From positions 6,185,470-6,249,469 of the forward strand of contig NZ_CP059557.1 of assembly GCF_022828475.1 (NCBI RefSeq): a stretch of DNA of 64,000 bases, in the 5' to 3' direction. A program made the translations under genes and the position numbers. The notes beneath the pieces are model-generated. The model saw nothing but the letters and a program-made list of their open reading frames with translations. It was not told the origin of the DNA and did not search any database. The first letter of the stretch is position 1, and each line of letters starts with the position of its first letter. The DNA comes from Saccharopolyspora gloriosae (GTDB lineage Bacteria; Actinomycetota; Actinomycetes; Mycobacteriales; Pseudonocardiaceae). Shown one piece after another: positions 14,254-61,575 of the stretch.

Positions 14254-14421
14254 AAGGCCGTGCCTGGATGCGCGAAGCGCACAGCCCACGTCGAAAATCG
14301 ACCACCCGCGGGTTCTCAACCGTCTTCTCGCCAGGACAGCAATGTGCTCGTGACGGAGCCACCAGTGAAATTGATCCCGCAGCGAGAAGGCAGCTGAGGT
14401 TCCGCCACCCGGACACCCCCT
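14254..14421 (+). repeat. Dispersed palindromic element, copy A (subtype II)
   Basis: Hairpin arms CTCAACCGTCTTCTCGC (from about 14314) and GCGAGAAGGCAGCTGAG (from about 14382) share the family core but have several mismatches, so this copy is worn. The left flank GCCGTGCCTGGATGCGCGA with AGCCCACGTCGAAAA matches copies C and D; the right flank GGTTCCGCCACCCGGACACC matches C and E. The inner part keeps CTCGTG-CGGAGCCAC. It lies between the prs terminator and the convergent nitroreductase gene. Confidence 0.8.
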
Positions 14422-14437
14422 CAGCCCATCGGCGGAG

Positions 14438-15052
14438 TCAGACGGTAGTGACGATTTCGTCGTAGTCGTGGCGGGGCAGGCGGTCGAACCAGGGGTCCTC
14501 GCCGGGCTTGCCGATGTTGACCACCACGAGCACCTTCTCGCGGCCTTCGGGGAAGAACTCGGCGTTGACGCCCGCCGCGTCGAACCCGGTCATCGGACCG
14601 GCCGCCAGGCCCGCGGCGCGGACGCCGAGGATGAAGTACGCGACCTGCAGGGTGCCGTTGAGCTTGGCGTGGTCGGCGCGGAACCCGTCGTCACCGGCCC
14701 ACATGTCCTTCGCGTTGGGCGCGTGCGGGAACATCCGCGGCAGGTTCTCGTGGAAGTCGGTGTCGGCGGCGAGCACGGCGACCAGCGGTGCGTTCTCCGT
14801 CTTGGCCCGGTTGCCTTCCGACAGGTGCGGCAGCAGGCGCTGCTTGCCTTCGTCGGACCGCACCAGCACGATCCGCAGCGGCTGCTGGTTCATCGAGGTG
14901 GGACCCCACTTGACCAGGTCGTGGATGGCGCGCAGCTGCTCGTCGGTGACTTCTTCGGAGCTGAAGGTGTTGGCGGTGCGGGCATCCCGGAACAGCAGGT
15001 CCTGGGCTTCCGGGGAGAGCTTGATCCCGGTGGTGGCGTCGGTCGAAGTCAT
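14438..15052 (-). CDS. Nitroreductase family protein, RutE/HadB-like (malonic semialdehyde reductase type)
   Basis: The 204-residue protein belongs to the FMN-dependent nitroreductase superfamily, subgroup RutE/HadB. Members reduce 3-oxopropanoate-type aldehydes or nitro compounds with NAD(P)H. Typical blocks are LLFRDARTANTFSSEEVTDE, KWGPTSMNQQPLRIVLVRS (FMN-binding SxMNxQPxR), AAGLAAGPMTGFDAAGVNAEFF and VVNIGKPGEDPWFDRLPR. ATG 15052 follows AAGGAAG. The gene is alone on its strand here: the Nramp-like gene upstream is 101 bp away. The real substrate is unknown; there is no pyrimidine-catabolism cluster around it. Confidence 0.88.
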   Translation of the reverse strand: MTSTDATTGIKLSPEAQDLLFRDARTANTFSSEEVTDEQLRAIHDLVKWGPTSMNQQPLRIVLVRSDEGKQRLLPHLSEGNRAKTENAPLVAVLAADTDFHENLPRMFPHAPNAKDMWAGDDGFRADHAKLNGTLQVAYFILGVRAAGLAAGPMTGFDAAGVNAEFFPEGREKVLVVVNIGKPGEDPWFDRLPRHDYDEIVTTV

Positions 15053-15153
15053 GATCACTTCCTTGTTCGCGGTTGTCCCGACCAACGTATTTGAAGCTTC
15101 CAGAATTCCGGAACCCGTTCCGCATAACCGAGTCCGCGGCCACACCGGCTCGA

Positions 15154-16470
15154 TCAGAACAGCCCGACGAGCTCGTTCGCCGCCACCCCGACGAACAGCA
15201 GCAGGCACAGCGTGAGCAGCGTGTTCGACAGCCACCGGGAGCGGTGCGCGGCAGGCATCATCGAGCGCGAGTTCAACAGCACCAGCAACGTGCCCGCCAG
15301 AAACGGCATGAACAACGCGCCCAGCACGCCGTACACCAGGGTCAGCTGGAACGGCTTGCTGAAGATCAGCAGCAGCATCGGCGGGAACGTGAGCCACAGC
15401 AGGTAGATCCGGTACGGCGCGCTGTGCATGCCCGCCTTGTGGTCGTAGGCCTCCGCCGTCTCCACCGGTGCGTCCTTCGGCAACCGCCAGGTCCGCCACC
15501 AGTCGGCGAACAGCAGGCTCACGCCGTTCCACACGCCGATCACCGAGCTGAACGCGACGGCGAAGAAGCCCACCAGGAACGGGATCCGAGCCCACTCGCC
15601 GTAGTCCGCGGCGAGCACGTCACCGAGGTTGAGCAGGCCCTTGTCGCTTTCGGTGAGGTCCTGCCCGAGCAGGATCTCGGCTCCCACCACCAGCATCGCC
15701 ACCACGAAGATCCCGGTGGTGACGTATCCGACGGCGTTGTCCATCCGCATGATCGGCAGCCACTTCGGCGACCGCCAGCCCTTGGCGAAGGTCCAGTAGC
15801 CGTAGGCCGCCATCGTGATGGTGCCGCCGACCCCGCCCATCAGGCCGAGCACGTAGGCCACCGAACCGTCCGGCAGCGTCGGGACCAGGCCCGTGGCCAG
15901 CTCGGGCAGGTTCGGCCCGACCAGGAACGCGGTGCCGACGACGGTCACGAACATGACCCCGACCAGCACCGTCATGATCTTCTCCAGCACGGCGTACCGG
16001 CCGAACCAGACGAGCGCGAGGCCCAGCAGCCCGCACACGATGGCCCAGCCGCCGACCGGCAGCACCGGGAACAGCGCGTTGAGCGGCAGCGCCGAGGCCG
16101 ACATCGCGGTGGCGCCGTAGACGAAGCCCCAGATCACGATGTAGACGCCGAAGTAGGTGGTGGCCCACCGGCCGAGGGAACGCCAGCCGGAGAGCATGGT
16201 GCGCTCACCGCCGAGGTGCCAGCGGCCGACGGCCTCGCCGAGCGCCAGCTTGAAGATCGTGCCGACCAGGATCGCCCAGAACAGCGTGTACCCGTAGCGG
16301 GCTCCCGCCACCATGGTCGCGACCAAGTCGCCCGCGCCGACTCCGGTGGCGGCCGCCATAATTCCCGGCCCGACCTGTTTGAGCCTGGCCCAGCCGGTGG
16401 CCGGTTCGGCCGCCGGCGGACCGGCGGCGGTGCTCTCGGAGCCGGGATCGGAGCTCGTGTCAGCGGACAT
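15154..16470 (-). CDS. Nramp-like (divalent metal) membrane transporter with altered metal-site motifs
   Basis: A 438-residue polytopic membrane protein of the Nramp superfamily with about 11 helices. TM1 carries GPGIMAAATGVGAGDLVAT where classical Mn/Fe transporters have a DPGN motif. TM6 carries GLMGGVGGTITMAAYGYW in place of the MPH motif. Without these ligands it is unlikely to be a standard Mn(II)/Fe(II) importer; it resembles the Nramp-related branch, part of which moves Mg(II). I start at ATG 16470 (MSADTSSDPG), since longer frames add only a basic leader. It lies in the same direction as the nitroreductase gene downstream. Substrate is not assignable from sequence alone. Confidence 0.82.
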   Translation of the reverse strand: MSADTSSDPGSESTAAGPPAAEPATGWARLKQVGPGIMAAATGVGAGDLVATMVAGARYGYTLFWAILVGTIFKLALGEAVGRWHLGGERTMLSGWRSLGRWATTYFGVYIVIWGFVYGATAMSASALPLNALFPVLPVGGWAIVCGLLGLALVWFGRYAVLEKIMTVLVGVMFVTVVGTAFLVGPNLPELATGLVPTLPDGSVAYVLGLMGGVGGTITMAAYGYWTFAKGWRSPKWLPIMRMDNAVGYVTTGIFVVAMLVVGAEILLGQDLTESDKGLLNLGDVLAADYGEWARIPFLVGFFAVAFSSVIGVWNGVSLLFADWWRTWRLPKDAPVETAEAYDHKAGMHSAPYRIYLLWLTFPPMLLLIFSKPFQLTLVYGVLGALFMPFLAGTLLVLLNSRSMMPAAHRSRWLSNTLLTLCLLLFVGVAANELVGLF

Positions 16471-16685
16471 GCGCGTCAAACTATCTCCGAGTCGGGCGAC
16501 GGTCATCCGCAAGCGACCAAACCGTGACGGTGGCTTGTGCTTCCACTGGTTCTGTGGCGTCCAGTGACGAGTGATCACTTTCCGCCGTCACCGAGTGGAT
16601 CTCTCACTGCCACGAGTGACACCGGTCCGGTTGAACCATGCCTGAGCGCGATCAACACGGCCCGACCGGCGACTGCCCCCGAAGA

Positions 16686-17333
16686 TCAGTAAGCGACGGT
16701 GAAGCGGGTGCGGCGGTGCGCCGGCCGGTCGAGTTCGTCGATGAAGGCGAGCGCGTAGTCGTCGCCGCCGATCGTCGAATTGCCGTCGGCGTCCGACAGC
16801 AACAGATCACCGCCCACGCGGTAGGTGCCAGTGCGTTCCCCCGGCGCGTACGCGCCGAACACCGCGGGCGGGCTCACGTAGAACCAGTCCACGTGCCGCG
16901 GGGCCTCGCGCAGCGCGTCCAGCACCTCCGCGTGCGAGCCCGCCTCCGGCTTGAACTCTTCCGGGAACTCCGGGGTGTCGATCACGCGCGGCCCGCCCTC
17001 GGCCACCCGGAGACTGCCCGCGCCGCCCACGACGCCGAGCCGGAAGCCGTTCTTGCGCGCCGCGTCGAACAGCGTCGGCACCGCGTCGAGCAGCTTCTTG
17101 CCGTCCTCCAGCGGACGTCCCGGCGTCGCGATGAGCACCGCGTCCGCGTCCCGCGTCACGTCCACCACGAAGTCCGCGTCGTGCAGCGAACCCCGGCGCG
17201 CGGTGAGCCCGCCGCCCTGCTCCAGCGCGCTCACGTCCCGGGCCACCCCGACGACCTCGTGGCCCCGCGACAGGGCCTCCTTCGCGAGCCGGCCACCCGC
17301 GTATCCGGTGGCACCGAACAGAACGATCCGCAT
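16686..17333 (-). CDS. NAD(P)-dependent oxidoreductase, NAD(P)H-binding (atypical SDR) family
   Basis: A 215-residue Rossmann-fold protein of the YwnB/NmrA-like branch. The dinucleotide site VLFGATGYAGGRLAKEAL is at the very N-terminus, followed by VVGVARD and ADAVLIATPG. The conserved LGVVGGAGSLRV and VDWFYVSPPAVF segments lie in the middle, and GGDDYALAFIDELDRP near the end. ATG 17333 has a strong GAGGAGG sequence upstream. It diverges from an HxlR regulator, a pairing often seen for electrophile- or quinone-responsive reductases, so the regulator probably controls it. The physiological substrate is unknown. Confidence 0.87.
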   Translation of the reverse strand: MRIVLFGATGYAGGRLAKEALSRGHEVVGVARDVSALEQGGGLTARRGSLHDADFVVDVTRDADAVLIATPGRPLEDGKKLLDAVPTLFDAARKNGFRLGVVGGAGSLRVAEGGPRVIDTPEFPEEFKPEAGSHAEVLDALREAPRHVDWFYVSPPAVFGAYAPGERTGTYRVGGDLLLSDADGNSTIGGDDYALAFIDELDRPAHRRTRFTVAY

Positions 17334-17366
17334 GAATACCTCCTCGATCCAGAACCTGATCCCGAC

Positions 17367-17420
17367 GGTAACCATTGGTAATCAGTGACTTCAAAGTGCT
17401 ATAAGTACCTGATGGTTACC
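17367..17420. promoter_or_regulatory. Inverted repeat in the divergent oxidoreductase/HxlR promoter
   Basis: GGTAACCAT (17367-17375) and ATGGTTACC (17412-17420) are perfect inverted repeats bracketing the short AT-rich divergent promoter. The right arm overlaps the first codons of the HxlR gene. It is a candidate autoregulatory site for HxlR. Confidence 0.5.
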
Positions 17421-17789
17421 GAACTGGTCCCGGACGTGCACAACCCCGCCTGCCCCACCCGCGTCGTGCTCGACCGCATCGGCGACCGCTGGACTTCACT
17501 GGTGGTGCTGAGCCTGGCTCCCGGGCCGATGCGCTTCACGCGGCTGCGCGCGGGCGTCGGCGGGGTCGCGCCGAAAGTGCTCACCCAGACCTTGCGCGCC
17601 ATGCAGCGGGACGGGCTGCTCACCCGCACCGTGCACGCCGAGGTACCGCCGCGGGTGGACTACGAACTCACCGAACTCGGCCGTTCACTGCAGGTTCCCA
17701 TCCAGGCCATCACCGACTGGGCCGAGGCGCACGTGACCGAAGTCGTGGCCGCGCGCGCCGACTACGACGCGGCCCGCGACGAGGCGTAG
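17412..17789 (+). CDS. HxlR family winged-helix regulator
   Basis: A 125-residue HxlR-type DNA-binding protein. The N-terminal NPACPTRVVLDRIGDRW segment is typical and has one cysteine just before the winged helix, as in redox- or quinone-sensing members such as YodB. TRLRAGVGGVAPKVLTQTLR is the recognition region and VDYELTELGRSLQVPI the wing and following helix. ATG 17412 has no ribosome-binding site and sits close behind an AT-rich promoter, so the mRNA is probably leaderless. The divergent oxidoreductase is the likely target. Redox sensing through the cysteine is an inference. Confidence 0.9.
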   Translation: MVTELVPDVHNPACPTRVVLDRIGDRWTSLVVLSLAPGPMRFTRLRAGVGGVAPKVLTQTLRAMQRDGLLTRTVHAEVPPRVDYELTELGRSLQVPIQAITDWAEAHVTEVVAARADYDAARDEA

Positions 17790-17850
17790 CACCACCCGGG
17801 CAACGCACGCCGGGCAAGCAGGCTCTAAACTATTCGGGTTGCCTCGGCGA

Positions 17851-17876
17851 GGCCGGGTTCCTTCCACCCGGCGTGA
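17851..17876 (+). other. Leader region of rplY
   Basis: Within the 257-bp leader before rplY, CCGGGT and ACCCGG form a 6-bp stem around TCCTTCC. A possible -10 (TAAACT) lies shortly upstream near 17826. No known ribosomal-protein leader motif was recognised. Confidence 0.3.
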
Positions 17877-18046
17877 TCGACGCGGCGGCTCGGTGTTCGC
17901 CCTCGTGGACGCGAAGGACGCCGCCGGTGCCGTTCGCACCAGGTGCCGCCCCTTCCGGTACGCGCCGCCCACGCCAGTGGCACACCCGCCGCCGCAGGCC
18001 GCCGACCAGTTTCATTTCCGCCCGACGTCACGAGGAGTGCACCACC

Positions 18047-18679
18047 GTGTCCGAGGTACGTATTTCCGTCGAACCGCGCACCGAGTTCGGTAAAGGCGCC
18101 GCCCGCCGCACCCGCCGCTCCGGCAAGATCCCCGCGGTGCTCTACGGTCACGGCTCCGACCCGAAGCACCTGTCGCTGCCCGCGGTCGAGTTCGCCCGCG
18201 CCGTCCGTGACAACGGGCAGAACGCCGTGCTGACCCTCGAGGTCGCCGGCTCCGACAACGAGCTGGCGCTGACCAAGACCGTCACCGCGCACCCGATCAA
18301 GAACTACATCGAGCACGTGGACCTGCTGCTGGTCAAGCGCGGCGAGAAGGTCACCGTGAACGTCCCGATCGTGCTGGTCGGCGACGCCACTTCCGGCACC
18401 CTCGTCACCCAGACGCTCAACGAGCTCGAGGTCGAGGCCGAGGCGCTGCACATCCCGGAGCAGTTCGAGGTGTCCGTGGACGGCGCCGAGGACGGCACCC
18501 AGATCCACGCCTCCGACGTGAAGCTGCCCCGCGGCGTCACGCTGTCCGCCGACGCCGAGGTCCTGGTGGCGCACATCAGCGAGGCGCCGAGCGCCGCGGA
18601 CATGGAGTCCGAGATCGACGCCGAGGGTGCGGGCGTCGTCGAGGACGAGTCCGAGGACTCGGCCAACGCGGAGTCCTGA
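18047..18679 (+). CDS. rplY: 50S ribosomal protein L25/Ctc, long form
   Basis: L25 binds 5S rRNA in the large subunit. The 210-residue protein is the long CTC-type form: the N-terminal 5S-binding domain runs to about residue 95 (RTEFGKGAARRTRRSGKIPAVLYGHG, given here in outline, then YIEHVDLLLVKRGEKV). A second beta-domain follows, and then an acidic tail ending EDESEDSANAES. GTG 18047 (VSEVRISVEPRTEFGKG) is preceded by GAGGAG; upstream in-frame starts would add a low-complexity leader. It is followed by pth, as in mycobacteria, although 233 bp and a hairpin separate the two. Confidence 0.95.
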   Translation: MSEVRISVEPRTEFGKGAARRTRRSGKIPAVLYGHGSDPKHLSLPAVEFARAVRDNGQNAVLTLEVAGSDNELALTKTVTAHPIKNYIEHVDLLLVKRGEKVTVNVPIVLVGDATSGTLVTQTLNELEVEAEALHIPEQFEVSVDGAEDGTQIHASDVKLPRGVTLSADAEVLVAHISEAPSAADMESEIDAEGAGVVEDESEDSANAES

Positions 18680-18699
18680 GCCCACGACGTCGGGCCGAC

Positions 18700-18729
18700 G
18701 ACCGGGGTGTGGTGCGCCACGCCCCGGTC
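18700..18729 (+). terminator. Hairpin between rplY and pth
   Basis: GACCGGGGTGTGG (18700-18712) pairs with CCACGCCCCGGTC (18717-18729) over 13 bp with one G-U pair and a 4-nt loop. No T-run follows, so it may attenuate rather than fully end transcription into pth. Confidence 0.6.
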
Positions 18730-18912
18730 GCCGCGGTCCGCGGTCGTGATCCGCGGGCTCGCCGACCCTGAATTTCGGCGCTGCGGCGCCACCGAGCCGC
18801 GGCCTGAAGCGCCGCGGCAGCACCACCTCGGCCTCGCGCCGCTCGGCGCGTGCCGTTCGATCGGCCACCGCGAGGTCGCACCACCGCGACCCCCTTCCGA
18901 GGATGCAGCCTG

Positions 18913-19488
18913 GTGACCACTCCTGAAGCGCCCACTCTGATCATCGGGCTCGGCAACCCCGGCCCGCGTTACGAGGGCAACCGGCACAACGTGGGCTTCC
19001 TCGTCGCCGACGAGATCGCGGCCCGCATCGGCGGCAAGTTCAAGGCGCACAAGGCGAATGCCGACGTCGTCGAAGGCCGGTTGGGCGCTCGCCGGGTGGT
19101 GCTGGCCAAACCCCGGTCGTTCATGAACCTCTCCGGCGGCCCCGTCGCGGGCACGGCGAGGTTCTACAAGGTCCTGCCCGAGTCGCTGATCGTGGTGCAC
19201 GACGAACTGGACCTGCCGTACGGCACGGTCCGGTTGAAGCGCGGCGGCGGCGAGAACGGGCACAACGGGCTGCGCTCCATCACCAAGTCCTTGGGCACCA
19301 AGGAATACTTGCGGGTGCGGTTCGGCGTGGATCGGCCGCCGGGCCGGATGGATCCGGCGGACTACGTGCTCAAGGATTTCTCCGGCGCGGAGCGCAAGGA
19401 CCTCGGCTACTTCGTGGACCTGTGCGCCGACGCCGTCGAGGCCCTCGCCGCAGACGGCTTGGAACCCGCGCAAAACCGCTTCCACTGA
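18913..19488 (+). CDS. pth: Peptidyl-tRNA hydrolase
   Basis: Pth releases tRNA from prematurely dropped peptidyl-tRNAs and is essential in most bacteria. The 191-residue protein shows the family N-terminus [20 protein letters not shown], with the catalytic histidine in [19 protein letters not shown] contains the substrate-binding asparagine, and [19 protein letters not shown] with HNGLRSI completes the site. GTG 18913 is chosen because it falls directly before the conserved domain and follows GAGGATG; an upstream ATG would add a poorly conserved leader of 21 residues. It converges with the acyl-AMP ligase gene. Confidence 0.96.
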
Positions 19489-19506
19489 CCTCTTCCCCGG
19501 CTCCGG

Positions 19507-21283: not shown

Positions 21284-21379
21284 GTGACGCACATTACGTC
21301 CGTCCCGAGACGACCGGAACCGTCCCACCGCGTAATCGCCCGAGGGAACCGGCGCACCGCCCTTGCACCGAAGTGCGGG

Positions 21380-21575
21380 CGAGAAGATCATTTCTTGATC
21401 ATCGTCTTCTCGGCAGCGAAGCCGATGACCAGTGACCAGCTAGAGCAAACCCACCACCGGCGGGTTCTCAGCGGCTTCCTCGCGCGGACAACAGCCCGGA
21501 CCCGGATTTCGCCGTGCAGCGGGCTACATGAGAAACGGATCTCGCAGCGAGGAAGCCGCCGAGCGAGCCACTACG
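21380..21575 (-). repeat. Dispersed palindromic element, copy B (subtype I)
   Basis: Core arms CTCAGCGGCTTCCTCGC (21467-21483) and GCGAGGAAGCCGCCGAG (21547-21563) match at 16 of 17 positions. The flank GCCGATGACCAGTGACC (21421 on) corresponds to flanks of copies E and F. An outer palindrome, CGAGAAGA (21380-21387) with TCTTCTCG (21405-21412) around GATCA-TTTCT-TGATC, probably belongs to the element because AGACGAT-ATC is also found in copy F. It fills the gap between the acyl-AMP ligase start and the ABC-F stop. Confidence 0.8.
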
Positions 21576-21592
21576 CAGGAAATCCGGACGCC

Positions 21593-24439: not shown

Positions 24440-24650
24440 GTCCGGGGTGTCCGGGCGGCGGAACCTCAGCGGCCTTCTCACTGCTGGATCAATTTCGCCA
24501 GTGGCCCGCCACGAGCGAAATCGCTGTCCTCGCGAGAAGGCCGCTGAGAACCCTCCGGTGGTCGGCCTGCGCACGTGGGCTATGCGCTACGCGCATGCGG
24601 GCACGGCTACACCGCAAGGCACGGCCTTCGGCCGCAAGGCCGGAAGCAAT
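24440..24650 (-). repeat. Dispersed palindromic element, copy C (subtype II)
   Basis: Arms CTCAGCGGCCTTCTCAC (24465-24481) and GCGAGAAGGCCGCTGAG (24532-24548) match at 16 of 17 positions. A nested inner palindrome ATTTCGC-CA-GTGG / CCAC-GA-GCGAAAT lies in the loop. Read on the minus strand, the left flank carries GCCGTGCC, ATGCGCGTAGCGCAT and AGCCCACGT as in copies A and D; the other side reads GGTTCCGCCGCCCGGACACC. It lies between metQ and ispE. Confidence 0.85.
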
Positions 24651-24685
24651 CCCCTGAAACCGACCCTCCACGCACCACAGCAACC

Positions 24686-24796
24686 ACACGCCAAGCCGGA
24701 GAAGGCTTTGAAACCCGCCCCCACACGCCAAGCCGAGCAAGACTTCGAAACCCTCGCCCACACGCCAAGCCGAACAAGACTCCAAAGCCCGCCCAC
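24686..24796. repeat. Three 37-bp imperfect tandem repeats, C/A-rich
   Basis: The phrase ACACGCCAAGCCG recurs at 24686, 24723 and 24760, exactly 37 bp apart, each followed by a diverged continuation with AAGACT and AAACCC/AAGCCC. The plus strand is rich in C and A and poor in T. It lies between copy C and the 3' end of metQ. Confidence 0.85.
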
Positions 24797-24820
24797 CCGG
24801 CACGTGAGATTCGACCTTGA

Positions 24821-25636
24821 TCAGTCGGCCGGGATGACCGAGATTCCGCCGTAGGTCTTGTTGATGTAGTCCTTCACCTCGGGCGAGCGGAGCAGTTCGG
24901 CGAGCTTCTGCACGCGGGGGTCCTTCGCCATCGCCGGGGAGGCGACGAGGCCGTTCGCGTACGGGTTGTTCTCCGCCTTCTCCACGACGAGCGGGTCCGT
25001 CAGGTTGGCCTTCAGTGCGAAGTTGCCGTTGACGATCGCGGCGTCGGAGTCGTCCACCGCGCGGGGCAGCTGGTCGCTGGAGAGCTCCTGGAACTCGACG
25101 TTCTTCGGGTTCTCCGCCACGTCGCGCACCCCGGCGCCCTGCTCGGAGCCCGGCTTGAGCTTGATGATCCCGTTGTCCTCCAACAGCTTCAGGCTGCGGG
25201 TCAGGTTCGACGGGTCGTTGGGCAGCGCGATCCGCGCGCCGTTGGGCAACTCCTGGAGGGACTTGACCTTCTTGGAGTAGATCGACAGCGGCTCCAGGTG
25301 CACGGTCTGCACCCATTCGAACTCGCCGCCGCGCTGCGCCTGGTACTCGGCCAGGTACGGCTTGTGCTGGAAGTAGTTCGCGTCCAGCTCGCCGTTGGCG
25401 ACGGCCTCGTTCGGCCGGTTGTAGTCGTCGAACTGCTCGATCTCCAGGTCGATGCCCGCCTTCGGAGCGAGGTTCTCATCGACGTACTTGAGGATCTCGC
25501 CGTGCGGCTGCGGGCTCACGCCGATCGCCAGCGGGGCGTTCGGGTCCTGCGCCGCATCGGTGCCGCCGCCACCGCAGCCCGCCAACGCCAGTGAAGAAAC
25601 GGCGGTGAGCACGACCGCCAGGGAACGAATACGCAT
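24821..25636 (-). CDS. metQ: Methionine ABC transporter substrate-binding lipoprotein MetQ
   Basis: MetQ captures methionine outside the membrane and delivers it to MetNI. The 271-residue protein has a lipoprotein signal (MRIRSLAVVLTAVSSLALAG then Cys about 21). The NlpA-family domain follows, with IGVSPQPHGEILKYV, DDYNRPNEAVANGELDANYF, the highly typical QHKPYLAEYQ, IALPNDPSNLTRSLKLL and the late VSPAMAKD-like segment. ATG 25636 sits after GAAAGGA. It is the last gene of the metNIQ operon, 113 bp after metI, and is followed by tandem repeats and copy C. Confidence 0.95.
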   Translation of the reverse strand: MRIRSLAVVLTAVSSLALAGCGGGGTDAAQDPNAPLAIGVSPQPHGEILKYVDENLAPKAGIDLEIEQFDDYNRPNEAVANGELDANYFQHKPYLAEYQAQRGGEFEWVQTVHLEPLSIYSKKVKSLQELPNGARIALPNDPSNLTRSLKLLEDNGIIKLKPGSEQGAGVRDVAENPKNVEFQELSSDQLPRAVDDSDAAIVNGNFALKANLTDPLVVEKAENNPYANGLVASPAMAKDPRVQKLAELLRSPEVKDYINKTYGGISVIPAD

Positions 25637-25749
25637 CAGTGCGTCCTTTCTGGTATGGAGGCCGACCGGTGACGCGCACCGGTTCCGGCAGCGGACCCCC
25701 GAGGTCCCTGCCGTCGGCCGTTCGGCTGAAGCAGTGGGAGTGCGGTGCG

Positions 25750-26433
25750 CTACCCGGTCGCGGAGCGACGGCGGTCCACGGCTTTCGCCGTGAAGTCGGT
25801 GAGCAGCTGCATCCCGAAGGCCAGTACCGCGAGGACGATCACCGATCCGTAGAGGACCCGATCGTCGTAGGCCTGATAACCGTCTTGAATGGCGGTGGTC
25901 CCCAGCCCGCCGCCACCGATCGCGCCCGCCATCGCCGCGTAACCGATCAGCGTCACGGCGGTGACGCCGACGGCCCCGACCAGCGCGGCTCGCGCCTCGC
26001 CGATCAGGACCGTCCGCACGATCCGCCACCGGCCGGAACCGGTGGTGATGGCCGCTTCGACGACGGTGAAGCTCACTTCGCGCAGCGCGTTCTGGGTCAG
26101 CCGCGCGAAGAACGGCACCGCTCCGATGGTCAACGGCACGATCACCGCGGTGCTGCCGATGGACGTGCCCACCAGCAGCCGGGTGAACGACGCGAGGATC
26201 ACCAGCAGCACCACGAACGGCACGGACCGGACCACGTCGACGATCACACCGAGGATCCGGTGCACCGTCGGCCGCGGGGTCAGCCCGACCGGGGAGCTCA
26301 GGTGCAGGAACACGCCGAGCGGCAGGCCGCCGGCGACTGCCAGCACGGTCGTCACCACGACCATGTAGAGCGTTTCCCCGGTGGCTTCACCGAGCATCTC
26401 CACGACTTCCGCCCAAGGGGTCGGATCACTCAC
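25750..26433 (-). CDS. metI: Methionine ABC transporter permease MetI
   Basis: This 227-residue membrane component forms the methionine channel as a dimer with MetN. Five hydrophobic helices are visible, starting with TLYMVVVTTVLAVAGGLPLG. The permease motif is ALREVSFTVVEAAITTGSGR with the EAA-loop variant. VTLIGYAAMAGAIGGGGLG is the hallmark segment of MetI proteins. It overlaps the end of metN by four bases (start codon inside the metN stop region), so the two are translationally coupled. Confidence 0.95.
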   Translation of the reverse strand: MSDPTPWAEVVEMLGEATGETLYMVVVTTVLAVAGGLPLGVFLHLSSPVGLTPRPTVHRILGVIVDVVRSVPFVVLLVILASFTRLLVGTSIGSTAVIVPLTIGAVPFFARLTQNALREVSFTVVEAAITTGSGRWRIVRTVLIGEARAALVGAVGVTAVTLIGYAAMAGAIGGGGLGTTAIQDGYQAYDDRVLYGSVIVLAVLAFGMQLLTDFTAKAVDRRRSATG

Positions 26434-27452: not shown

Positions 27453-27726
27453 GATCGCTCCGCATCAGCTCACACCGGACCGCGGGCATGCCGCATGAGG
27501 CCGGGAAAGACGAACAGAAAGGCTGGGGAAGGGACTGCGACGGCCTCGGCCGTCAGCGGACGCGGCGACAGGCCGTGGTGGTGCGGCGTCCGTGATCGAT
27601 CACTCGACGCTGCGTCAACGCGAGTCCGTGCGGACCGGATCCGGTGCGGGCGCGGCCGCCACGGGCCTGCCGTCGGTTGATCCGGGGCGCGCGTTCGCCT
27701 GCGAGCAGAGTTTCAGACACCACAAC

Positions 27727-27812
27727 TCCATCGACCCTGGCGTTAGCACCTGCTCGCGTTGAGTGGTTGCTGCGGCGTCGTGGAGCCAGGTCTCTCAGCC
27801 GCTCGGGATGGA
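27727..27812 (-). ncRNA. SAM riboswitch (S-box, SAM-I type), metNIQ leader
   Basis: Read on the minus strand, P1 is TCCATC (27807-27812) paired with GATGGA (27727-27732). P2 is GCGGC...GCCGC around GAGACCTGGCTC. The conserved junction GACGCCGCAGCAACC corresponds to the S-box GAAGCCNGGCAACC, and AGGTGCTAACGCC matches its AGGTGCTAA-CC. High SAM should lower metNIQ expression. The expression platform lies somewhere in the following 275 nt and could not be assigned. Confidence 0.85.
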
Positions 27813-27985
27813 TTTCCCGAATAGTAGAACGCAGCGATGTCGGCGAACGCAAGCCGCATACGGTCACTATGTGGAATCGTTTGACAAATCACATCACCCC
27901 GACGAGCAGGGGTTCTTGATCAACTCAACTTATTCCAGTGACCATATGTGACCATCGCAACGCTTTTGGGGTGCCGTTCGGCTAG

Positions 27986-32846: not shown

Positions 32847-33692
32847 TCAGGAGGCGGGCACCTGATCGAGACGGAAGACCCGCTCGGCCGTGGCGGTCGT
32901 GGCCACGATCAGTTCAGCGAGATCCCCGTCACGCCACTCCGCCAGGTCTCGAAAGGTGTAATTGGCGCAGTACGGCTCGTTCGGTCGTCCGCGGAACGGG
33001 TGCGGGGTGAGGAACGGCGCGTCGGTCTCCACCAGCATCTGCTCCACCGGCACCAGCCGGGCGGCCTCGCGCAGGCCGACGGCGTTGGCGTTGCGGAAGG
33101 TCGCGGTGCCCGCGAACGAGAGCACGTAGCCACGGTCCACGCAGGTGCGGGCGAACTCGGCGTCGCCGGAGAAGCAGTGGAAGATCACCGTCTCCGGGGA
33201 GCCCTCCTCGGTCAGGATGCGCAGGATGTCCTCGTGCGCGTCCCGGTCGTGGATCATCAGCGGCTTGCCGGTGCGCTTGGCCAGGTCGATGTGCCAGCGG
33301 AACGCCTCGTGCTGCGGCTCCGGCGGGGAGAAGTCCCAGTAGTAGTCCAGTCCCGTCTCGCCGATCGCGACGACCCGCGGCCGCAGCGCCAGCTCCTCCA
33401 GCACCCGCCGGTCCGCTTCGGTGAAGTCCTTGGCCCTGGTCGGGTGCAGGGCGACCGCCGCGAACACTCGATCGTCCCAAGTGGACGCTTCGGCGGCCCA
33501 GCTCGCGGCTTCGATGTCGTCGGCGACCGTGACCACCCGGGTGATGCCGGCGGTCTCCGCCCGGTCCACCAGCGCCCGCACGTCCTCGGCGGTCTTCGCG
33601 CCGCACGCGTCGAGGTGGGTGTGCGCGTCCACCGCGGGCGCGGGCAGCGCCTCCGGCATCGGCGGCCGTTCCTTCTTGTCCTTCTTGCTCAC
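32847..33692 (-). CDS. tatD: TatD family metal-dependent deoxyribonuclease
   Basis: TatD-family enzymes are TIM-barrel hydrolases with 3'-5' DNase activity. The 281-residue protein shows the metal-binding VDAHTHLDACG, AVALHPTRAKDF, AIGETGLDYYWDFSPPE (metal-binding Glu), PLMIHDRDAHEDILRIL, VIFHCFSGDAEFA and ETDAPFLTPHPFRG (catalytic Asp). GTG 33692 follows AGGGG. The gene precedes the rpf and rsmA genes on the same strand, as in mycobacteria, where metG usually lies upstream; metG is not found here. Confidence 0.94.
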   Translation of the reverse strand: MSKKDKKERPPMPEALPAPAVDAHTHLDACGAKTAEDVRALVDRAETAGITRVVTVADDIEAASWAAEASTWDDRVFAAVALHPTRAKDFTEADRRVLEELALRPRVVAIGETGLDYYWDFSPPEPQHEAFRWHIDLAKRTGKPLMIHDRDAHEDILRILTEEGSPETVIFHCFSGDAEFARTCVDRGYVLSFAGTATFRNANAVGLREAARLVPVEQMLVETDAPFLTPHPFRGRPNEPYCANYTFRDLAEWRDGDLAELIVATTATAERVFRLDQVPAS

Positions 33693-34929: not shown

Positions 34930-35101
34930 ACGGCGAAGCCGTGCCTGGATGTGCGAAGCACGTAGCCCACGTCGAAAAGGTGGCCACCCGCGGGTTCTCA
35001 GCTGTCTTCTCGCGAGGACAGCTTTTTCCCTCGTGGCGGAGCCACTAGGGAAAAAGATCCCGCAGCGAGAAGACAGCTGAGGTTCCGCCACCCGACCACC
35101 C
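34930..35101 (+). repeat. Dispersed palindromic element, copy D (subtype II), best-preserved nested hairpin
   Basis: Outer arms CTCAGCTGTCTTCTCGC (34997-35013) and GCGAGAAGACAGCTGAG (35065-35081) are perfect over 17 bp. Inside, CTTTTTCCCT (35022-35031) pairs with AGGGAAAAAG (35047-35056), and GTGGC (35033-35037) with GCCAC (35041-35045). The left flank GCCGTGCCTGGATGTGCGA and AGCCCACGTCGAAAA matches copy A. The core differs from other copies by compensated changes (GCTGTC against GACAGC), which keep pairing. Confidence 0.9.
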
Positions 35102-37599: not shown

Positions 37600-37668
37600 G
37601 GGCCAGGTAACGGAACCTCGGCGTTGGTGCCGGTTGCTCGGGCGGTCACTGCTCAGCGACTGCGCCGC
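37600..37668 (-). repeat. Dispersed palindromic element, remnant copy G
   Basis: GTAACGGAACCTCGGCG is followed by TTGCTCGGGCGGTCACTG and CTCAGCGACTGCGCC. These equal the two outer ends of the subtype I element: compare GTAGCGGAACCTCAGCG in copy E and GCTCGGGTGGTCACTGCTCAG in copy F. The hairpin core between them has been deleted. It lies downstream of pmt. Confidence 0.6.
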
Positions 37669-37694
37669 CGACGCGCTGGAGATCAACAGCTGCT

Positions 37695-53735: not shown

Positions 53736-53831
53736 CTGTGGAGTGTCCGACGAAATATCGACAGCGCCTCATCCCGCGTGCCCTGAACGAGGGTTCGGCG
53801 GCCGCTGCCACTCACTCCGCGTAGCGCGGTT

Positions 53832-56146: not shown

Positions 56147-57565
56147 TCACGCCACGTGCCCCGGCAGGATCATCCGCAGCAACGCGCCGCCCTCCGGCGC
56201 GGCACCGGCCCAGACGCTGCCGCCGTGTCGCTCCGCCACTTGTTTGACGATCGACAGGCCGAGCCCCGAACCGGGCAAGGTCCGCGCCAGCGACGACCGG
56301 TAGAACCGCTCGAACACGTGCGGCCGGTCCGCCTCGGCGATGCCCGGTCCGCTGTCGGCGACCTCCAGCACCACCGAACCCGCGCCGTCGGCGTACATGC
56401 CGACCCGGACCGTGCCGCCGTCGCGACTCCACTTCGCCGCGTTGTCCAGCAGGTTCAGCACCGCGCGCTCCAGCGCCGTGGCGTCGCCCATCATCGACCA
56501 CGGCTGCAACCGCACGTCGAACTCGACGGGACCCGCGCGCCTGCGCGCCCGGTTCAGCGCCCGTTCGACCACGTCGACCAGCTCGACCGGTTCGTGCACG
56601 GCCTGCGGGGCGTCCTCCCTGGCCAGTTCCACCAAGTCCCCGACGAGCGCGGAGAGCTCGGTGATCTGGCCGCGCACGTCCTCGAACATCTCCTCGCGGT
56701 CCTGTTCGGACAGTGCGGGCGCCCCCGGCTGCGCGGCGGCCATCAGCAGTTCCAGGTTGGTGCGCAACGAGGTCAGCGGCGTGCGCAGCTCGTGCCCGGC
56801 GTCGGCGACGAGTCTTCGCTGCCGTTCCTGGGATTCGGCCAGCGCGCCGAGCATGTCGTTGAACGAGGTGGTGAGCCTGGCGAGCTCGTCGTCCCCGGAC
56901 ACCGGAATCGGCCGCAGGTCCCCGGTCAGCGCGACGCGTTCGGTGGCCGCGTTGAGCCGCTGCACGGGGCGCAGTCCGGCGCTGGCCACGGCGGTGCCCG
57001 CGGCGGCGGCGAGCAGGATCCCCGCGCCGCCGATCACGACCAGCACCAGGCTCAGCTGCGCCAGCGTCGCCTTCGTCGGGCCGAGCGACTGCGCCATCAC
57101 CAGCGCGCCGTTGTCCGCGGGAACGGCCACGATGCGGGTGTCGGTGGCGTCATCGGTGCGGATGGACTTCGGCAGTTTTCCCTGCGCCACGGCCAGTTCC
57201 AGCGGACCGGAGGGCGGCCGCTTGCTCGGCGCCAGCTCCGCGCCGTTCGGGTAGAGCACGCTGATCTGCAGGTTCGCCGCCGAGTAGAACGCCACCGGCA
57301 CGCCCTGCAACCCGGCGGGCGAGGTGATCAGCGGCCCCGCCTCGGCTTCGACGGCACGCCGCAGCAGGCCGTCGTCGAGCTGCTCGTACAGGCTGTCGCG
57401 CACGGTGAAAAACGCGCCGAGCGAGACGAGGGCGACGGCTCCGGCCACGCACATCGCGGCGAGCAGCGTGACCCGGTTGCGCAGCGAGATGCGCTGTAAC
57501 CGGGCCTGGCCGGCGGGTTCGCCGTCGGTGGTCGCGCCGGGTGGCGGTGGAGCGGGAGCGATCAC
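56147..57565 (-). CDS. mprB: Sensor histidine kinase, MprB-like
   Basis: A 472-residue sensor kinase. It has an N-terminal helix ([20 protein letters not shown]), an outer sensing region of about 115 residues, and a second helix ([20 protein letters not shown]). HAMP then follows, and the phospho-acceptor box [20 protein letters not shown]. The ATPase domain shows [17 protein letters not shown] (N box), [20 protein letters not shown] (G1/F) and [17 protein letters not shown] (G2). Length, layout and proximity to pepD and rpmF match MprB, the envelope-stress sensor of mycobacteria. GTG 57565 overlaps the regulator gene by four bases (GTGA). Confidence 0.92.
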
Positions 57566-58257
57566 GGCGGGGTCTCGCGGAGCACGTAGCCGACGCCGCG
57601 CACGGTGTGGATCAAGCGTGGTTCACCTTCGGTCTCGGTCTTGCGGCGCAAGTATCCGATGTAGACCTCCAGGGCGTTTCCCGAGGTCGGAAAGTCGTAA
57701 CCCCACACGTCCTCCAGCAGGCGGCTGCGGGTCAGGACCTGCTTCGGGTGCGCCATCAGCAGTTCCAGCAGCGCGAACTCGGTGCGCGTGAGGCTGATGG
57801 GGCGCTCGCCCCGGCGCACTTCACGGGTGCCGGGATCGAGGTCGAGGTCGGCGAAGTGCAGTGCGGGCGGGCTGTCGTAGCCGTCGTCCTCGGCCGGTGA
57901 GGCGCGGCGCAGCAGGGCGCGCAGCCGAGCCAGCAGCTCTTCGAGCGCGAACGGTTTCGGCAGGTAGTCGTCGGCTCCCGCGTCGAGACCTGCGACCCGG
58001 TCGGACACGGCATCGCGGGCGGTGAGCACCAGGATCGGCAGGTCGTCGCCGGTGCTGCGCAACCTGCGCGCCACCTCCAGGCCGTCCAAGCGCGGCATCA
58101 TCACGTCCAGGACCATCGCGTCGGGCCGCTGGTCGGCCAGCCAGTTCAGGGCCTGTTGACCGTCCGCGGCGAGTTCCACCTGGTAGCCGTTGAACTGCAA
58201 CGAGCGACGAAGCGACTCGCGCACGGCCCGATCGTCGTCGACGACGAGGATGCGCAT
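57562..58257 (-). CDS. mprA: OmpR-family response regulator, MprA-like
   Basis: The 231-residue regulator has a receiver domain ([20 protein letters not shown], phospho-acceptor Asp in [52 protein letters not shown]). The winged-helix DNA-binding domain follows ([56 protein letters not shown]). It is expected to be phosphorylated by the coupled MprB and to regulate itself and pepD through the matching tandem repeats. ATG 58257 is used; TAACAC seven bases upstream fits a leaderless -10. Confidence 0.94.
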
Positions 58258-58279
58258 GCGGACAGTGTTACGCGAAGCC

Positions 58280-58301
58280 CTGAGAAGGACCTGAGAACCG
58301 A
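58280..58301 (-). promoter_or_regulatory. Putative MprA box upstream of mprA
   Basis: Plus strand CTGAGAAGGAC-CTGAGAACCGA: two 11-bp direct repeats containing TCTCAGG on the minus strand, 23 bp upstream of the mprA start. Identical layout to the pepD site. Confidence 0.75.
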
Positions 58302-58412
58302 CCGCCCCTCCCCGCCCGGATGTGACCGACGCCGCCCGGACCGCCGCTTCGTGCACTCGGGCGTACGACCTGCGACCGGTCGCGCGTGCCGTTGCTCCAC
58401 GTGCCCGGGAGC

Positions 58413-58537
58413 CGCCTTGTCAGCGGCGGAGCCGATGAGCAGCGACCACCTGCGCAGCCGGACCACCGAGGGTTCTCAGCGGCCTTCTCGCGAGGACGGC
58501 CGCGAGAAGGCCGCTGAGGTTCCGCTACCCGGACACC
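58413..58537 (+). repeat. Dispersed palindromic element, copy E (subtype I, short loop)
   Basis: Arms CTCAGCGGCCTTCTCGCG (58475-58492) and CGCGAGAAGGCCGCTGAG (58501-58518) are perfect over 18 bp with an 8-nt loop. The inner palindrome of other copies is missing. The left flank CTTGTCAGCGGCGGAGCCGA with TGAGCAGCGACCACC matches B and F (in reverse); the right flank GGTTCCGCTACCCGGACACC matches A and C. It lies between mprA and rpmF. Confidence 0.88.
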
Positions 58538-58566
58538 CGCGCAGATCAAGGCCGAACACGGAGCGT

Positions 58567-58719
58567 TCAGCGCTGCTGGAAGTACCGGATCAGGTTGCGC
58601 GGGACGAGTTTGCGCTCGCCTTCGACGACGATCGGCACGAGTTCGGGCGCGGTCGCCTTCCACTGCGAACGCCGGTGCCGGGTGTTGCTGCGGGACATCT
58701 TCCGCTTCGGAACGGCCAT
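58567..58719 (-). CDS. rpmF: 50S ribosomal protein L32, cysteine-free
   Basis: A 50-residue L32: [50 protein letters not shown]. It has no cysteine, so it cannot carry the zinc site of the C-plus form. ATG 58719 has GGAGAG upstream. It is 13 bp after the L31 gene and probably in one operon with it and the mrf gene. rpmF also lies next to mprA in M. tuberculosis. Confidence 0.96.
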
Positions 58720-58732
58720 GCGGGTGCTCTCC

Positions 58733-58984
58733 TTAACGTGCGCGGTCGCCGTAGCGGCGGCGGAACTTCTCGACTCGGCCTTCGCTGTCGAGGACTCGCT
58801 GGTTGCCGGTCCAGAACGGGTGCGAATCGGCGGTGATGTCGACGACGATCAGCGGATAGGTGGCACCGTCCTCCCAGGTGACGGTGTCCTCCGAGGTGGC
58901 CGTCGAGCGCGTCAGGAACCGGGTTCCGGTGGAGCGGTCCTGGAACACGACCGGGCCGTATTCGGGGTGGATGTTCGGTTTCAC
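58733..58984 (-). CDS. rpmE2: 50S ribosomal protein L31, type B (zinc-independent)
   Basis: An 83-residue type B L31: [60 protein letters not shown] with the typical [19 protein letters not shown]. The CxxC zinc motif of type A is absent. GTG 58984 follows GAGGAGGAAAC. It is 85 bp downstream of the mrf gene and is expected to replace the zinc-binding L31 under zinc shortage. Confidence 0.97.
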
Positions 58985-59069
58985 GTGTTTCCTCCTCGTG
59001 TTTCGTGAGCGGGTTCGCCTGCCGGGGTTACCCCGCGGCATCGCCTGCTCATGCCCGCGGTGCGGGTTC

Positions 59070-60329
59070 TCACCGGTCGCCGCCGCGTTCGCGCGACGCC
59101 GGCGCCTGTTCCGGTTCGTCTTCGGCGCACGGGTCTTCGTGCCATTCGCCGAACGGGTCCGGGAATTCACGCCACGCGGTGTCACCGAGGGCGAGTTCGT
59201 CGTCGGTGAGCAGGGCGGCCAGCAGCGCGTTCCGGATGTCGCCGGGGTTCGCCTCGTGCGCGATGACCACGAGCTCCTGCATCCGGTCGCCGTAGTAGTC
59301 GTCCCAGTTCAGCGAGGCCTTGACCTGGCGTTCCGGGTCCGCTTCGGCCCACTGTTCGGGAGTTTGGGTCGCCAGCCACGGCCCGGCGTGCCCGACTCGC
59401 AGGCCGCCGCCCGCGGATTCGAGCCACAGCGCGGTGTCCGGCTGGCTGGCGACCCAGGCCCGCCCGCGGGTGCGCACGACTCCGTCGAGCAGCACGTCCA
59501 GCGCGTCGTGCAGGCGTTCCGGGTGGAACGGGCGACGCTGCTCGAAGACCACGACGGAGACTCCGGCTTCGTCATCCAGCGGCGGCTGCCCGCGCAGCAG
59601 CGGTCCGTGCGCGCCGTCGACCTCGCCGCGCCGGGCGTTGTCCGGGATGCGGCGCAGCAGCGCGGGCAGGTCGAGGCCGCCGAGCCCGGCGAGCGGTGCG
59701 GCGGGAGTGAGCCGGTGGATCACGGCTTCGGTGCGCACGGTCGGCCAGCGGTCGGCGTCGCCCGCGAGAACAACGGCGTCGGCGAACTCGACCTGTCCGA
59801 CGCCGACTTGGGCGATGGTGCGCTCGTCGTCGGGACTGCCCGCGAGACCGCGTTCGTAGAGCGGCTCGTCGCCGCCCGCGTCGGTGAGCCAGCTCGGCAC
59901 GTCGACGGCCGCGACGACGGCCTGGATCTCGACGTCCTCGGCGACCGGCGTCGAGTCGACGACGACGTGCTCGATGGCCCAGCAGATCGCCTCGGGTTCC
60001 AGGGAGGGGTCGAGGCGCACGACGATGCGCCGCACGTCGGGCGCGGCGGCGAGCCTGCGCAGCAGCGGCAGGAAGTCCTCGCGCAGCGTGCAGGAGACGC
60101 AGCCGTGGGCGAGTTCGAGCACGGTGAGCTGCTCGGAGTCGCCTTGCCGGAGGCGGCGGCGGACGACTCCGCCGGTGACTTCGCGCAGGTCGTGGTGGAC
60201 GACGGCGGTGCCGTGCGGGTCGGTGGCGCGGACGGATTCGGCGGTCGCCGCGACGTGTTCTTCGTGCAGCCCGGCCACCATGATCAGCGGCACTCCGGCG
60301 GTCCGGGACGGTTCGGTTCTGTTGCCCAC
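59070..60329 (-). CDS. mrf: CobW-family protein, orthologue of mycobacterial Mrf (Rv0106-like)
   Basis: The 419-residue protein aligns by eye with Rv0106/Mrf, which recruits the hibernation factor Mpy to zinc-free ribosomes. Shared blocks are [20 protein letters not shown] (CxxC in place of CxCC), [74 protein letters not shown] and [13 protein letters not shown]. The usual CobW P-loop GxxGxGKT is missing ([14 protein letters not shown]), as I recall it being in Rv0106. GTG 60329 is taken, TTG 60341 being the alternative. It diverges from the cysteine-free ribosomal protein operon, with Zur-like boxes between. Confidence 0.9.
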
Positions 60330-60346
60330 CTGCGGCCCCAATCAGG

Positions 60347-60358
60347 AACGGTTTTCAT
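60347..60358 (-). promoter_or_regulatory. Putative Zur half/box near the mrf start
   Basis: AACGGTTTTCAT, read on the minus strand ATGAAAACCGTT, resembles the actinobacterial Zur core TGAAAACG/TGAAAATG. It lies 18-29 bp upstream of the mrf start. Confidence 0.5.
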
Positions 60359-60384
60359 CTGCTGCCGCGACACGCTACCCTTAC

Positions 60385-60402
60385 TGAAAACGAATGTCGT
60401 TA
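60385..60402 (+). promoter_or_regulatory. Putative Zur box upstream of rpmB
   Basis: TGAAAACGAATGTCGTTA contains the inverted pair AACGA-ATG-TCGTT and resembles the actinobacterial Zur consensus TGAAAACG-type. A possible -10 TACCCT (60377-60382) directly precedes it, so a bound repressor would cover the transcription start. The ribosome-binding site AGGAGG and GTG 60416 follow. Confidence 0.65.
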
Positions 60403-60415
60403 CCAGGAGGCTGCT

Positions 60416-60652
60416 GTGTCCATTCGCTGCCAAGTGACCGGGAAGGAACCCGGCTACGGCAAGCAGGTGTCGCACTCGCACGTGCGCACCAACCGCCGCT
60501 GGCTGCCCAACGTGCAGCGGCGCCGGTACTGGCTGCCGTCGGAGAACCGCTGGATCCGCCTGCGGGTGTCGACGAAGGGCATCAAGACCATCGACAAGCG
60601 CGGCATCGAGTCCGTCGTCGGCGAGATCCGAGCCCGCGGGGAGCGCGTCTGA
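60416..60652 (+). CDS. rpmB: 50S ribosomal protein L28, zinc-independent paralogue
   Basis: A 78-residue L28: [40 protein letters not shown] and [20 protein letters not shown]. Only one cysteine remains, so a zinc site of the C-plus type cannot form. GTG 60416 has AGGAGG at good distance. It leads the rpmB-rpmG-rpsN-rpsR operon and overlaps rpmG by one base (TGATG). Such operons are Zur-repressed and expressed in low zinc in mycobacteria and streptomycetes. Confidence 0.96.
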
Positions 60653-60816
60653 TGGCGAGCAACGACATCCGTCCGGTGATCAAGATGCGGTCCACCGCAG
60701 GCACCGGATTCACCTACGTGACCAGGAAGAACCGCCGCAACAACCCGGATCGGCTGCGGCTGCGCAAGTTCGATCCCGTGGTGGGCGGGCACGTGGAGTT
60801 CCGCGAAGAGCGCTGA
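60652..60816 (+). CDS. rpmG: 50S ribosomal protein L33, cysteine-free
   Basis: A 54-residue L33: [40 protein letters not shown] and [14 protein letters not shown]. The four zinc cysteines of the C-plus form are absent. Its ATG shares the A of the rpmB stop codon, indicating translational coupling. rpsN follows after 27 bp. Confidence 0.96.
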
Positions 60817-60843
60817 GGCGCTCGACTACCCGAAGGAGGCCAG

Positions 60844-61149
60844 GTGGCCAAGAAGTCCAAGATCGTCCGCAACGAGCAGCGCAAGGTGATCGTGGCCCGG
60901 CACGCCGAGCGGCGCGCGGAACTCAAGAAGATCATCTCCGCGCCGGACGGCTCCCCCGAGCAGCGCGCCGCCGCCGTGGCGGAACTGTCCCGCCAGCCGC
61001 GCGACGCCAGCGCGACCCGCGTTCGCAACCGCGACGCCGTCGACGGCAGGCCGCGCGGCTACTTCCGCAAGTTCGGGCTCTCCCGGGTGCGCCTGCGCCA
61101 GCTCGCGCACAACGGTGAGCTGCCCGGCGTGACCAAGTCGAGTTGGTGA
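60844..61149 (+). CDS. rpsN: 30S ribosomal protein S14, long zinc-independent form
   Basis: A 101-residue S14 of the long type: [60 protein letters not shown] with [20 protein letters not shown] at the end. No CxxC motif is present, in contrast to the short zinc-binding S14 found in ribosomal operons. GTG 60844 follows GGAGGCCA. Third gene of the operon. Confidence 0.96.
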
Positions 61150-61154
61150 TCACG

Positions 61155-61394
61155 ATGCCGAAGAACGCCCAGCGGCCGCCCCGCCGCAAGCAGAACCTGC
61201 TGCAGAAGGAGGGCGTCATCGAGGTGGACTGGAAGGACACCGCCCTGCTGCGCAAGTTCCTCTCCGACCGCGGCAAGATCCGCTCCCGGCGAGTCACCGG
61301 GCTGACCATGCAGGAACAGCGCGAGGTCGCGAACGCGATCAAGAACGCCCGCGAGATGGCCCTGCTCCCCTACCCCGGCCCCGCCAAGCGCTAG
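61155..61394 (+). CDS. rpsR: 30S ribosomal protein S18, paralogue
   Basis: A 79-residue S18: [60 protein letters not shown] and [19 protein letters not shown]. No cysteine is present. ATG 61155 lies five bases after the rpsN stop; an in-frame start four codons earlier overlaps rpsN. It is the last gene of the low-zinc ribosomal operon and is followed by element copy F. Confidence 0.96.
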
Positions 61395-61404
61395 GGATCT
61401 TTGC

Positions 61405-61575
61405 TGAGCGGCCTGCACAGCGGGTCGCTCATCGGGTTCTCAGTGGCTTCCTCGCCGCGGGATCCATTACCCGAGTGGTTCCCCACGAGGAAGCCGCTGA
61501 GAACCCGCCGGTGGTCCTTTTTGCTCGGGTGGTCACTGCTCAGCGGCTGCACCGCTGACAAGACGATCATCCTGT
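61405..61575 (+). repeat. Dispersed palindromic element, copy F (subtype I)
   Basis: GGGTTCTCAG-TGGCTTCCTCG (61434-61454) and CGAGGAAGCC-GCTGAGAACCC (61486-61506) pair over 21 bp with one mismatch. The right flank, GCTCGGGTGGTCACTG then CTCAGCGGCTGCACCGCTGAC and AAGACGATCATC, is shared with B, E and remnant G. It lies directly after rpsR and may form the end of that operon's transcript. Confidence 0.88.

Follow-up and report, generated by a model that had tools for sequence, protein, structure and literature searches.

Repetitive extragenic palindromic (REP) sequences and the related BIMEs and REPINs of Escherichia coli and Pseudomonas are, according to PMC3733652 and PMC12306157, extragenic, palindromic and high in copy number, lie behind stop codons, and occupy gaps between convergent and co-directional genes. 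These sources place REPs mostly downstream of coding regions, with tags of the GTAG or CGTC class on 20–40-nt palindromes (PMC3733652), and report an effect on translation for a REP at most 15 nt from a stop codon (PMC12306157). Here we describe a family of hairpin elements that shares these general features, from a 64,000-nt stretch of the chromosome of the soil actinobacterium Saccharopolyspora gloriosae (NZ_CP059557.1, positions 6,185,470 to 6,249,469; hereafter the window) that holds six copies, A to F, and a remnant, G. Why REPs sit behind stops, as parasites or as parts of the gene end, is an old question pursued mainly in proteobacteria. The present family brings to it another phylum, with REP-like placement, a strong orientation rule, and no domain found of a REP-associated tyrosine transposase (RAYT).

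Several features distinguish the element from REPs, BIMEs and REPINs. Its hairpin is larger and has three parts, including an arm segment that is variable yet complementary; it carries no tetranucleotide tag; no RAYT domain was found in its host; it is strongly biased in orientation relative to genes; and it has been seen only in one actinobacterial group. With miniature inverted-repeat transposable elements (MITEs) and the enterobacterial RU-type repeats it has in common a non-autonomous size, palindromy, intergenic location, and presence or absence between relatives. Unlike them, its orientation is tied to stop codons, and neither a target duplication nor a parental insertion sequence was found. 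We propose, with a probability of about 0.5, that this is a REP-like element without a RAYT: a portable 3'-end hairpin spread by an enzyme not recognised here. Its position relative to stop codons is the main new result, and the orientation bias that comes with it goes beyond an earlier reading of the window from its letters (the sequence-only reading).

Where a copy lies is closely tied to where a gene ends. In most copies the core's right end falls 7–37 nt past the stop of a gene that is transcribed towards the element, and the conserved outer sequence begins still closer to the stop in many copies (alignment, by eye). By a stop-codon scan, 115 of 174 copies end within 60 nt of a converging stop: 21/30 in a 464-kb block of the host genome (G000; chromosome 6.88 Mb), 26/47 in 60 evenly spaced 20-kb samples of the same genome (1.2 Mb; two copies in common with the block), 14/24 in the relative G001, 7/10 in the relative G003, and 47/63 at other loci, a set that takes in records derived from G002, which belongs to the host's genus. 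These counts omit copies less than 500 nt from a sequence end, so that 47 of 50 sampled copies and 63 of 81 unique matches at other loci were used. Within the block, the gene calls put the right end of most copies 8–36 nt from the stop that it faces. Randomising place and orientation within gaps, 20,000 times for each set, gave 4.9 expected against 22/30 seen in the host block (maximum 13), 4.9 against 15/24 in G001 (maximum 13), and 3.3 against 8/10 in G003 (maximum 9). Neighbouring genes, called with a simple codon-score script that misses small genes (such as that of L32 at copy E), are convergent around 25 of 64 copies from three blocks, co-directional around 36, and divergent around 3. 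Because the fixed right end faces the converging stop, the element is antisense to the gene to which it is attached, and its position and structure together make the hairpin the first 3' untranslated region (UTR) structure of the attached mRNA. The sequence-only reading, which had put copies mostly just after 3' ends and in both orientations, is thus borne out for position; for orientation it holds on the chromosome strand, but with the attached gene as reference most copies face the same way.

The family itself is real by simple counts. The window contains 13 matches to the arm CTCAGCGGCCTTCTCGC at no more than three mismatches, where 0.65 would be expected; twelve of these matches are paired arms of copies A–F, while the match at 33585 has no partner. 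Copies A, C, D and E also contain the 3' tail GGTTCCGCCACCCGGACACC (at most three mismatches; 0.02 expected in the window), and the right ends of copies B and F are altered. A consensus core of about 119 nt (32 sequences; window copies and 30 loci of further matches were read) runs through GACCACCGGCGGGTTCTCAG, a variable arm, CTCGCGAGGACRGC, an inner stem and loop, GATCCCGCAGCGAG, the complementary arm and CTGAGGTTCCGCYACCCGGACACC, with a hairpin foot of GGGTTC / GGTTCC. Upstream, the core is preceded by a 5' module that belongs to either of two types, told apart by eye. Type I resembles CTTGTCAGCGGCGAAGCCGATGAGCAGTGACCACC, whereas type II is a series of GGCCGAAGGCC-like mini-hairpins terminating like TATGCGCGAAGCGCATAGCCCACGTC.

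Folding and substitution patterns support the hairpin. Three copies (D, E and one from elsewhere in the genome) fold with z-scores of -5.6 to -9.0 and energies of -50 to -72 kcal/mol. In a tested structure of 41 pairs, 92.6% of cells are paired and 76 are double-changed, against 26.1 after shuffling; sliding the partners lowers pairing to 39.7–50.7%. The middle of the outer stem is variable, with 10 different versions of the arm segment in the G000 sets, and this segment is fully complementary in 73 of the 106 copies that could be parsed among the 174. Departures to G-U and to A-C are equally frequent within the genus once two fixed columns are excluded, 20 versus 19 (A2) and 19 versus 19 (A3). 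Stepwise evolution of a single RNA strand would favour G-U, so it is possible that one arm is corrected from the other during replication, contributing to the covariation. The other-species set lacks this equality (G-U 56, A-C 20); 24 of its 56 G-U departures stand in one column and may be one inherited change.

Stem covariation, together with internal loops common to several genera (GCGAGGACRGC and GATCCCGCAGC), would also be expected if the copies were structured small RNA genes in their own right, read from the element strand and convergent to the host gene. The G-U excess in other species and the copy behind gatB described below fit such genes too. We nevertheless regard them as improbable: the G-U excess is absent within the genus outside the fixed columns and owes 24 of its 56 cases to one column, RNA parameters make the mRNA strand slightly the more stable (113 copies versus 79), and no promoter-like site appeared in the single 600-nt stretch scanned, with a consensus that may not fit this host. 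As a guide to which strand folds, energy was discarded, since DNA parameters point the opposite way, to the element strand (119 versus 73), with no clear winner. Rfam gave three gathering-score matches in the window, none overlapping a copy, and copy D returned just two sub-threshold microRNA matches (E 0.19 and 0.73). The open-licence literature searched, PMC3610266, PMC12306157, PMC4210621, PMC3733652 and PMC6006769 included, yielded no account of the element. No named family was matched, in agreement with the sequence-only reading, which did not recognise a named repeat.

A low-copy case links the hairpin to one particular gene. In a genus (g50) whose six genomes give 1–3 model matches each, the copy in G114 and in G087 starts directly after the double stop codon of gatB, identified as GatB by Pfam in G114. 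Between these two genomes the copy differs at two stem positions, and both sides of each are changed in a compensatory manner. The same junction is present in 4/6 genomes of the genus and in Prauserella aidingensis (L127), which perhaps belongs to it. Weaker element fragments exist in these genomes; these aside, sister copies are so few that gene conversion is an unlikely cause of the covariation. Covariation, stop distance with orientation, and retention behind gatB all favour the structured 3'-end element that the sequence-only reading had offered as an alternative to a mobile one. The two descriptions are not mutually exclusive.

The element is abundant in its host and confined, among the genomes sampled, to a narrow group. 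The 60 samples hold 50 unique copies, which gives an estimate of about 287 per genome; copies are unevenly spread, with 30 of the 60 samples lacking any. One-arm matches number 421 against 64 for a reversed control, and all of the best 150 of 8,766 first-look candidates match the model, so the suggestion that the genome could hold hundreds was sound. Model searches scored at most 150, 88, 22 or 14 candidates per genome, depending on the search, so copy counts per genome are lower bounds, and zeros in the large draws are less sensitive. Matches occurred in 40/160 genomes and 13/46 genera of a draw from the host family, Pseudonocardiaceae, and in 17/249 genomes of an order-wide draw, all 17 marked as the same family. 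A strict pattern scan gave, among the matches listed, Saccharopolyspora, Actinopolyspora (placed by NCBI in a separate family), Halopolyspora, Saccharomonospora and Prauserella; loci from all five genera also match the model, and pattern matches outside them were taken as chance and not run against it. Knowledge of the element would aid annotation of Saccharopolyspora genomes, a genus that includes antibiotic producers.

Along the host chromosome, a 0.49-Mb bin at about 5.40–5.90 Mb (G000:C1) contains 2 of the best-scoring 150 copies, compared with 17 and 20 in the neighbouring bins; lower-scoring copies do occur there in the samples. Three DnaA-domain matches of equal score (31 bits, 269-aa frames) lie on the minus strand at G000:C1:1534200, 2948987 and 5992292, and probably represent copies of a single insertion sequence that carries an IstB-like ATPase.

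Sites turn over rapidly. Relatives that are 83–95% identical show empty sites, unrelated copies, and opposite orientations at matching sites. In G001 (87% mean identity over aligned parts), 27 of the 30 block copies could be placed: 13 sites are occupied, 6 of them in the opposite orientation, and 14 are without an intact copy, one of which (316415) has a remnant (13 of the 14 were inspected). G003, at 83% identity, has a copy at 7/29 placed sites, and 80 kb of G005 syntenic to the window has none. Three of the six opposite-orientation sites lie, by the gene calls, in convergent gaps, so the element is there attached to the other gene; the remaining three have no such explanation. Scars without a hairpin mark three of the sites that lack an intact copy. 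Site-sharing copies average the 62nd percentile of all-pair similarity, with 2/13 pairs at the 95th and 99th, and their common descent was mostly unsupported by these ranks. Empty sites in close relatives, found here along with re-occupied ones, support the mobility that the sequence-only reading had suspected. The copies would be moved in trans.

The searches for a mover bear on two familiar classes of element. A strict REP/REPIN family mobilised by a RAYT would account for palindromic, extragenic copies, estimated in the hundreds, close behind stops in convergent and co-directional gaps, as REPs are portrayed in PMC3733652 and PMC12306157. The RAYT domain (Y1, PF01797), however, has no match in G000–G003 (at least 88 copies each) or in G018 (86 copies), and among the 5/14 genomes in which it does match (G004, G005, G010, G012 and G017), G012 has no element copy. 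For the known Y1 domain this contradicts the strict reading, and neither a GTAG nor a CGTC tag on a 20–40-nt palindrome is present at the hairpin foot of the ~119-nt core; we consider such a family highly improbable. PF04986 (Y2/IS91) matched in 0/41, in a search whose control also matched nowhere.

A second class, the MITE, would derive the element by deletion from a DDE-type insertion sequence that has terminal inverted repeats. Empty sites exist, and an outer inverted repeat such as GGAATGATC/GGCCATTCC is visible by eye in some copies, yet we judge this quite improbable. No arms split around a transposase were found among 190 left-arm motifs in the stretches examined, which fall short of the whole genome; four split-arm spans turned up, none with a transposase recognised by eye. 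Nor were transposase-like genes recognised by eye between close copies, where the genes were not run against Pfam. At the cleanest empty site, whose flanks have diverged, no target duplication is readable. Strict orientation to genes is also unusual for DDE elements. Of the suggestion that a transposase encoded elsewhere moves a REP/MITE-like element, then, the mobility stands, while a RAYT or other transposase with matching ends did not emerge from these searches.

The 5' modules hint at a single-stranded DNA stage. In 80 G000 copies (two counted twice), their triloops on the element strand are C(GAA)G in 119 cases, GCA in 12, GGA in 8 and GTA in 4, and 43 copies have C(GGA)G at the core apex; C(GNA)G makes up 109/3,429 outside elements. 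DNA mini-hairpins of the GCGAAGC type are described as extraordinarily stable, in keeping with the GNA rule for triloops. These loops, the nearly fixed G-U and U-G pairs on the element strand, and the fast divergence of sites between relatives could all reflect a selfish element whose strand folds and is copied by a single-strand transposase, with gene ends as an accessible or tolerated target and no useful function in mRNA. Several results make this somewhat unlikely. The second commonest triloop, C(CGT)G (38), is no GNA loop; Y1 has no match in G000–G003; and the copy behind gatB is retained. Orientation moreover tracks the gene and not replication: 88 of the best 150 copies run against the replication fork, where the gene bias of the block is 60%, although in the smaller unbiased sample the bias is stronger (38/50). 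Replication-strand targeting had itself been considered and was set aside, the 88/150 being accounted for by gene orientation; the 38/50 of the unbiased sample could still reflect it. A further, unlikely reading would couple insertion to transcription ends: single-stranded DNA with GNA mini-hairpins would be copied into one strand behind stops by an unrecognised kind of enzyme, re-installing a standard 3' UTR, and the arms would change jointly by palindrome correction.

Returning to the portable 3'-end hairpin, the proposal runs as follows. The element sits mostly 7–37 nt behind a host stop codon, antisense to the gene, such that the attached mRNA runs from the stop into a long imperfect hairpin and then into the mini-hairpins of the 5' module. 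In the simplest use the hairpin would end or protect the transcript, and the neighbouring gene, often convergent, would be shielded from read-through. Non-autonomous copies would spread and be replaced by a copying mechanism other than RAYT/Y1, and placement at gene ends could arise from target choice or from selection. Bidirectional intrinsic terminators likewise form hairpins at gene ends, often between convergent genes (here 25/64 copies). Unlike them, the element is repeated and mobile and has no regular U tract, and the native hairpin of the empty site is still visible beyond it at three sites (by eye).

Several observations weigh against this proposal. The crude scan leaves 59/174 copies without a converging stop inside 60 nt, and in co-directional gaps 11 of 36 copies are sense, as against 25 antisense. 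One window copy, C, truly breaks the placement rule. On the mRNA strand, just 43/174 copies have a TTTT run in the first 30 nt past the hairpin, so the element is no canonical intrinsic terminator. One G001 element separates two genes whose spacing in G002 is just 18 nt, a setting in which a strong terminator ought to carry a cost. The gatB junction is absent in G054 and G150, 2/6 genomes of its genus, and the GNA triloops sit on the antisense strand rather than the mRNA strand. Because the orientation rule coexists with empty sites and a low-copy gatB case, direct tests of insertion choice versus selection are possible.

The copies in the window are laid out as follows; the limits of the 5' modules were drawn by eye.

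14254..14299, plus strand: copy A, type II 5' module, with mini-hairpins of GGCCGAAGGCC and GCGCGAAGCGC
14300..14417, plus strand: copy A, core hairpin; the stop of a minus-strand nitroreductase-family gene (14438) lies 20 nt from its right end
21404..21451, plus strand: copy B, type I 5' module
21452..21583, plus strand: copy B, core; the stop of a minus-strand ABC ATPase gene (21593) lies 9 nt away
24446..24563, minus strand: copy C, core; sense to the preceding NlpA lipoprotein gene (24821-26029)
24564..24640, minus strand: copy C, type II 5' module
34936..34981, plus strand: copy D, type II 5' module
34982..35100, plus strand: copy D, core hairpin; the stop of a minus-strand rsmI-like gene (35135) lies 34 nt away
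37606..37672, minus strand: remnant G, right-end tail fused to a 5' module, no hairpin (sequence reading)
58416..58460, plus strand: copy E, type I 5' module
58461..58537, plus strand: copy E, core, its loop shortened; the stop of a minus-strand gene (58567) lies 29 nt away
61420..61516, minus strand: copy F, core, its loop shortened and its outer stem perfected; it lies 25 nt past stop 61394 of rpsR (S18)
61517..61564, minus strand: copy F, type I 5' module

Copies A, B, D, E and F and remnant G obey the stop-codon rule. Remnant G sits 27 nt past stop 37578 of a plus-strand mannosyltransferase gene, and the gene attached to copy E reads as ribosomal protein L32 (named by eye). Copy C is some 62 nt away from where a GHMP kinase gene (ispE-like) begins. 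The site of copy A is empty in G002, G003 and G005 and holds another copy in G001; that of copy B is empty in G001 and G002, holds a different copy in G003, and in G005 is taken by about 1.4 kb of other DNA with no copy.

In the G000 block, the type II 5' modules are arrays of GGCACGGCTTCGCCGCAAG-like mini-hairpins that adjoin the core and are highly variable in length. A second repeat type, of tandem units like CACACGCCAAGCCGAACAAGACTCCAAAACCC and GGAAGTAATCACTAAA, lies beside type II copies (window 24600-24900 and loci L016, L022, L023 and L030). Between copies E and F, window 58567-61394 encodes L31, L32, S18 (L31 and S18 by Pfam) and a CobW-like frame, which by eye resembles a zinc-starvation ribosomal-protein set; the L31/L32/S18 cluster has no placement in the G001 block. 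The window also contains a SAM riboswitch at 27725-27814 on the minus strand (RF00162, 61.6 bits).

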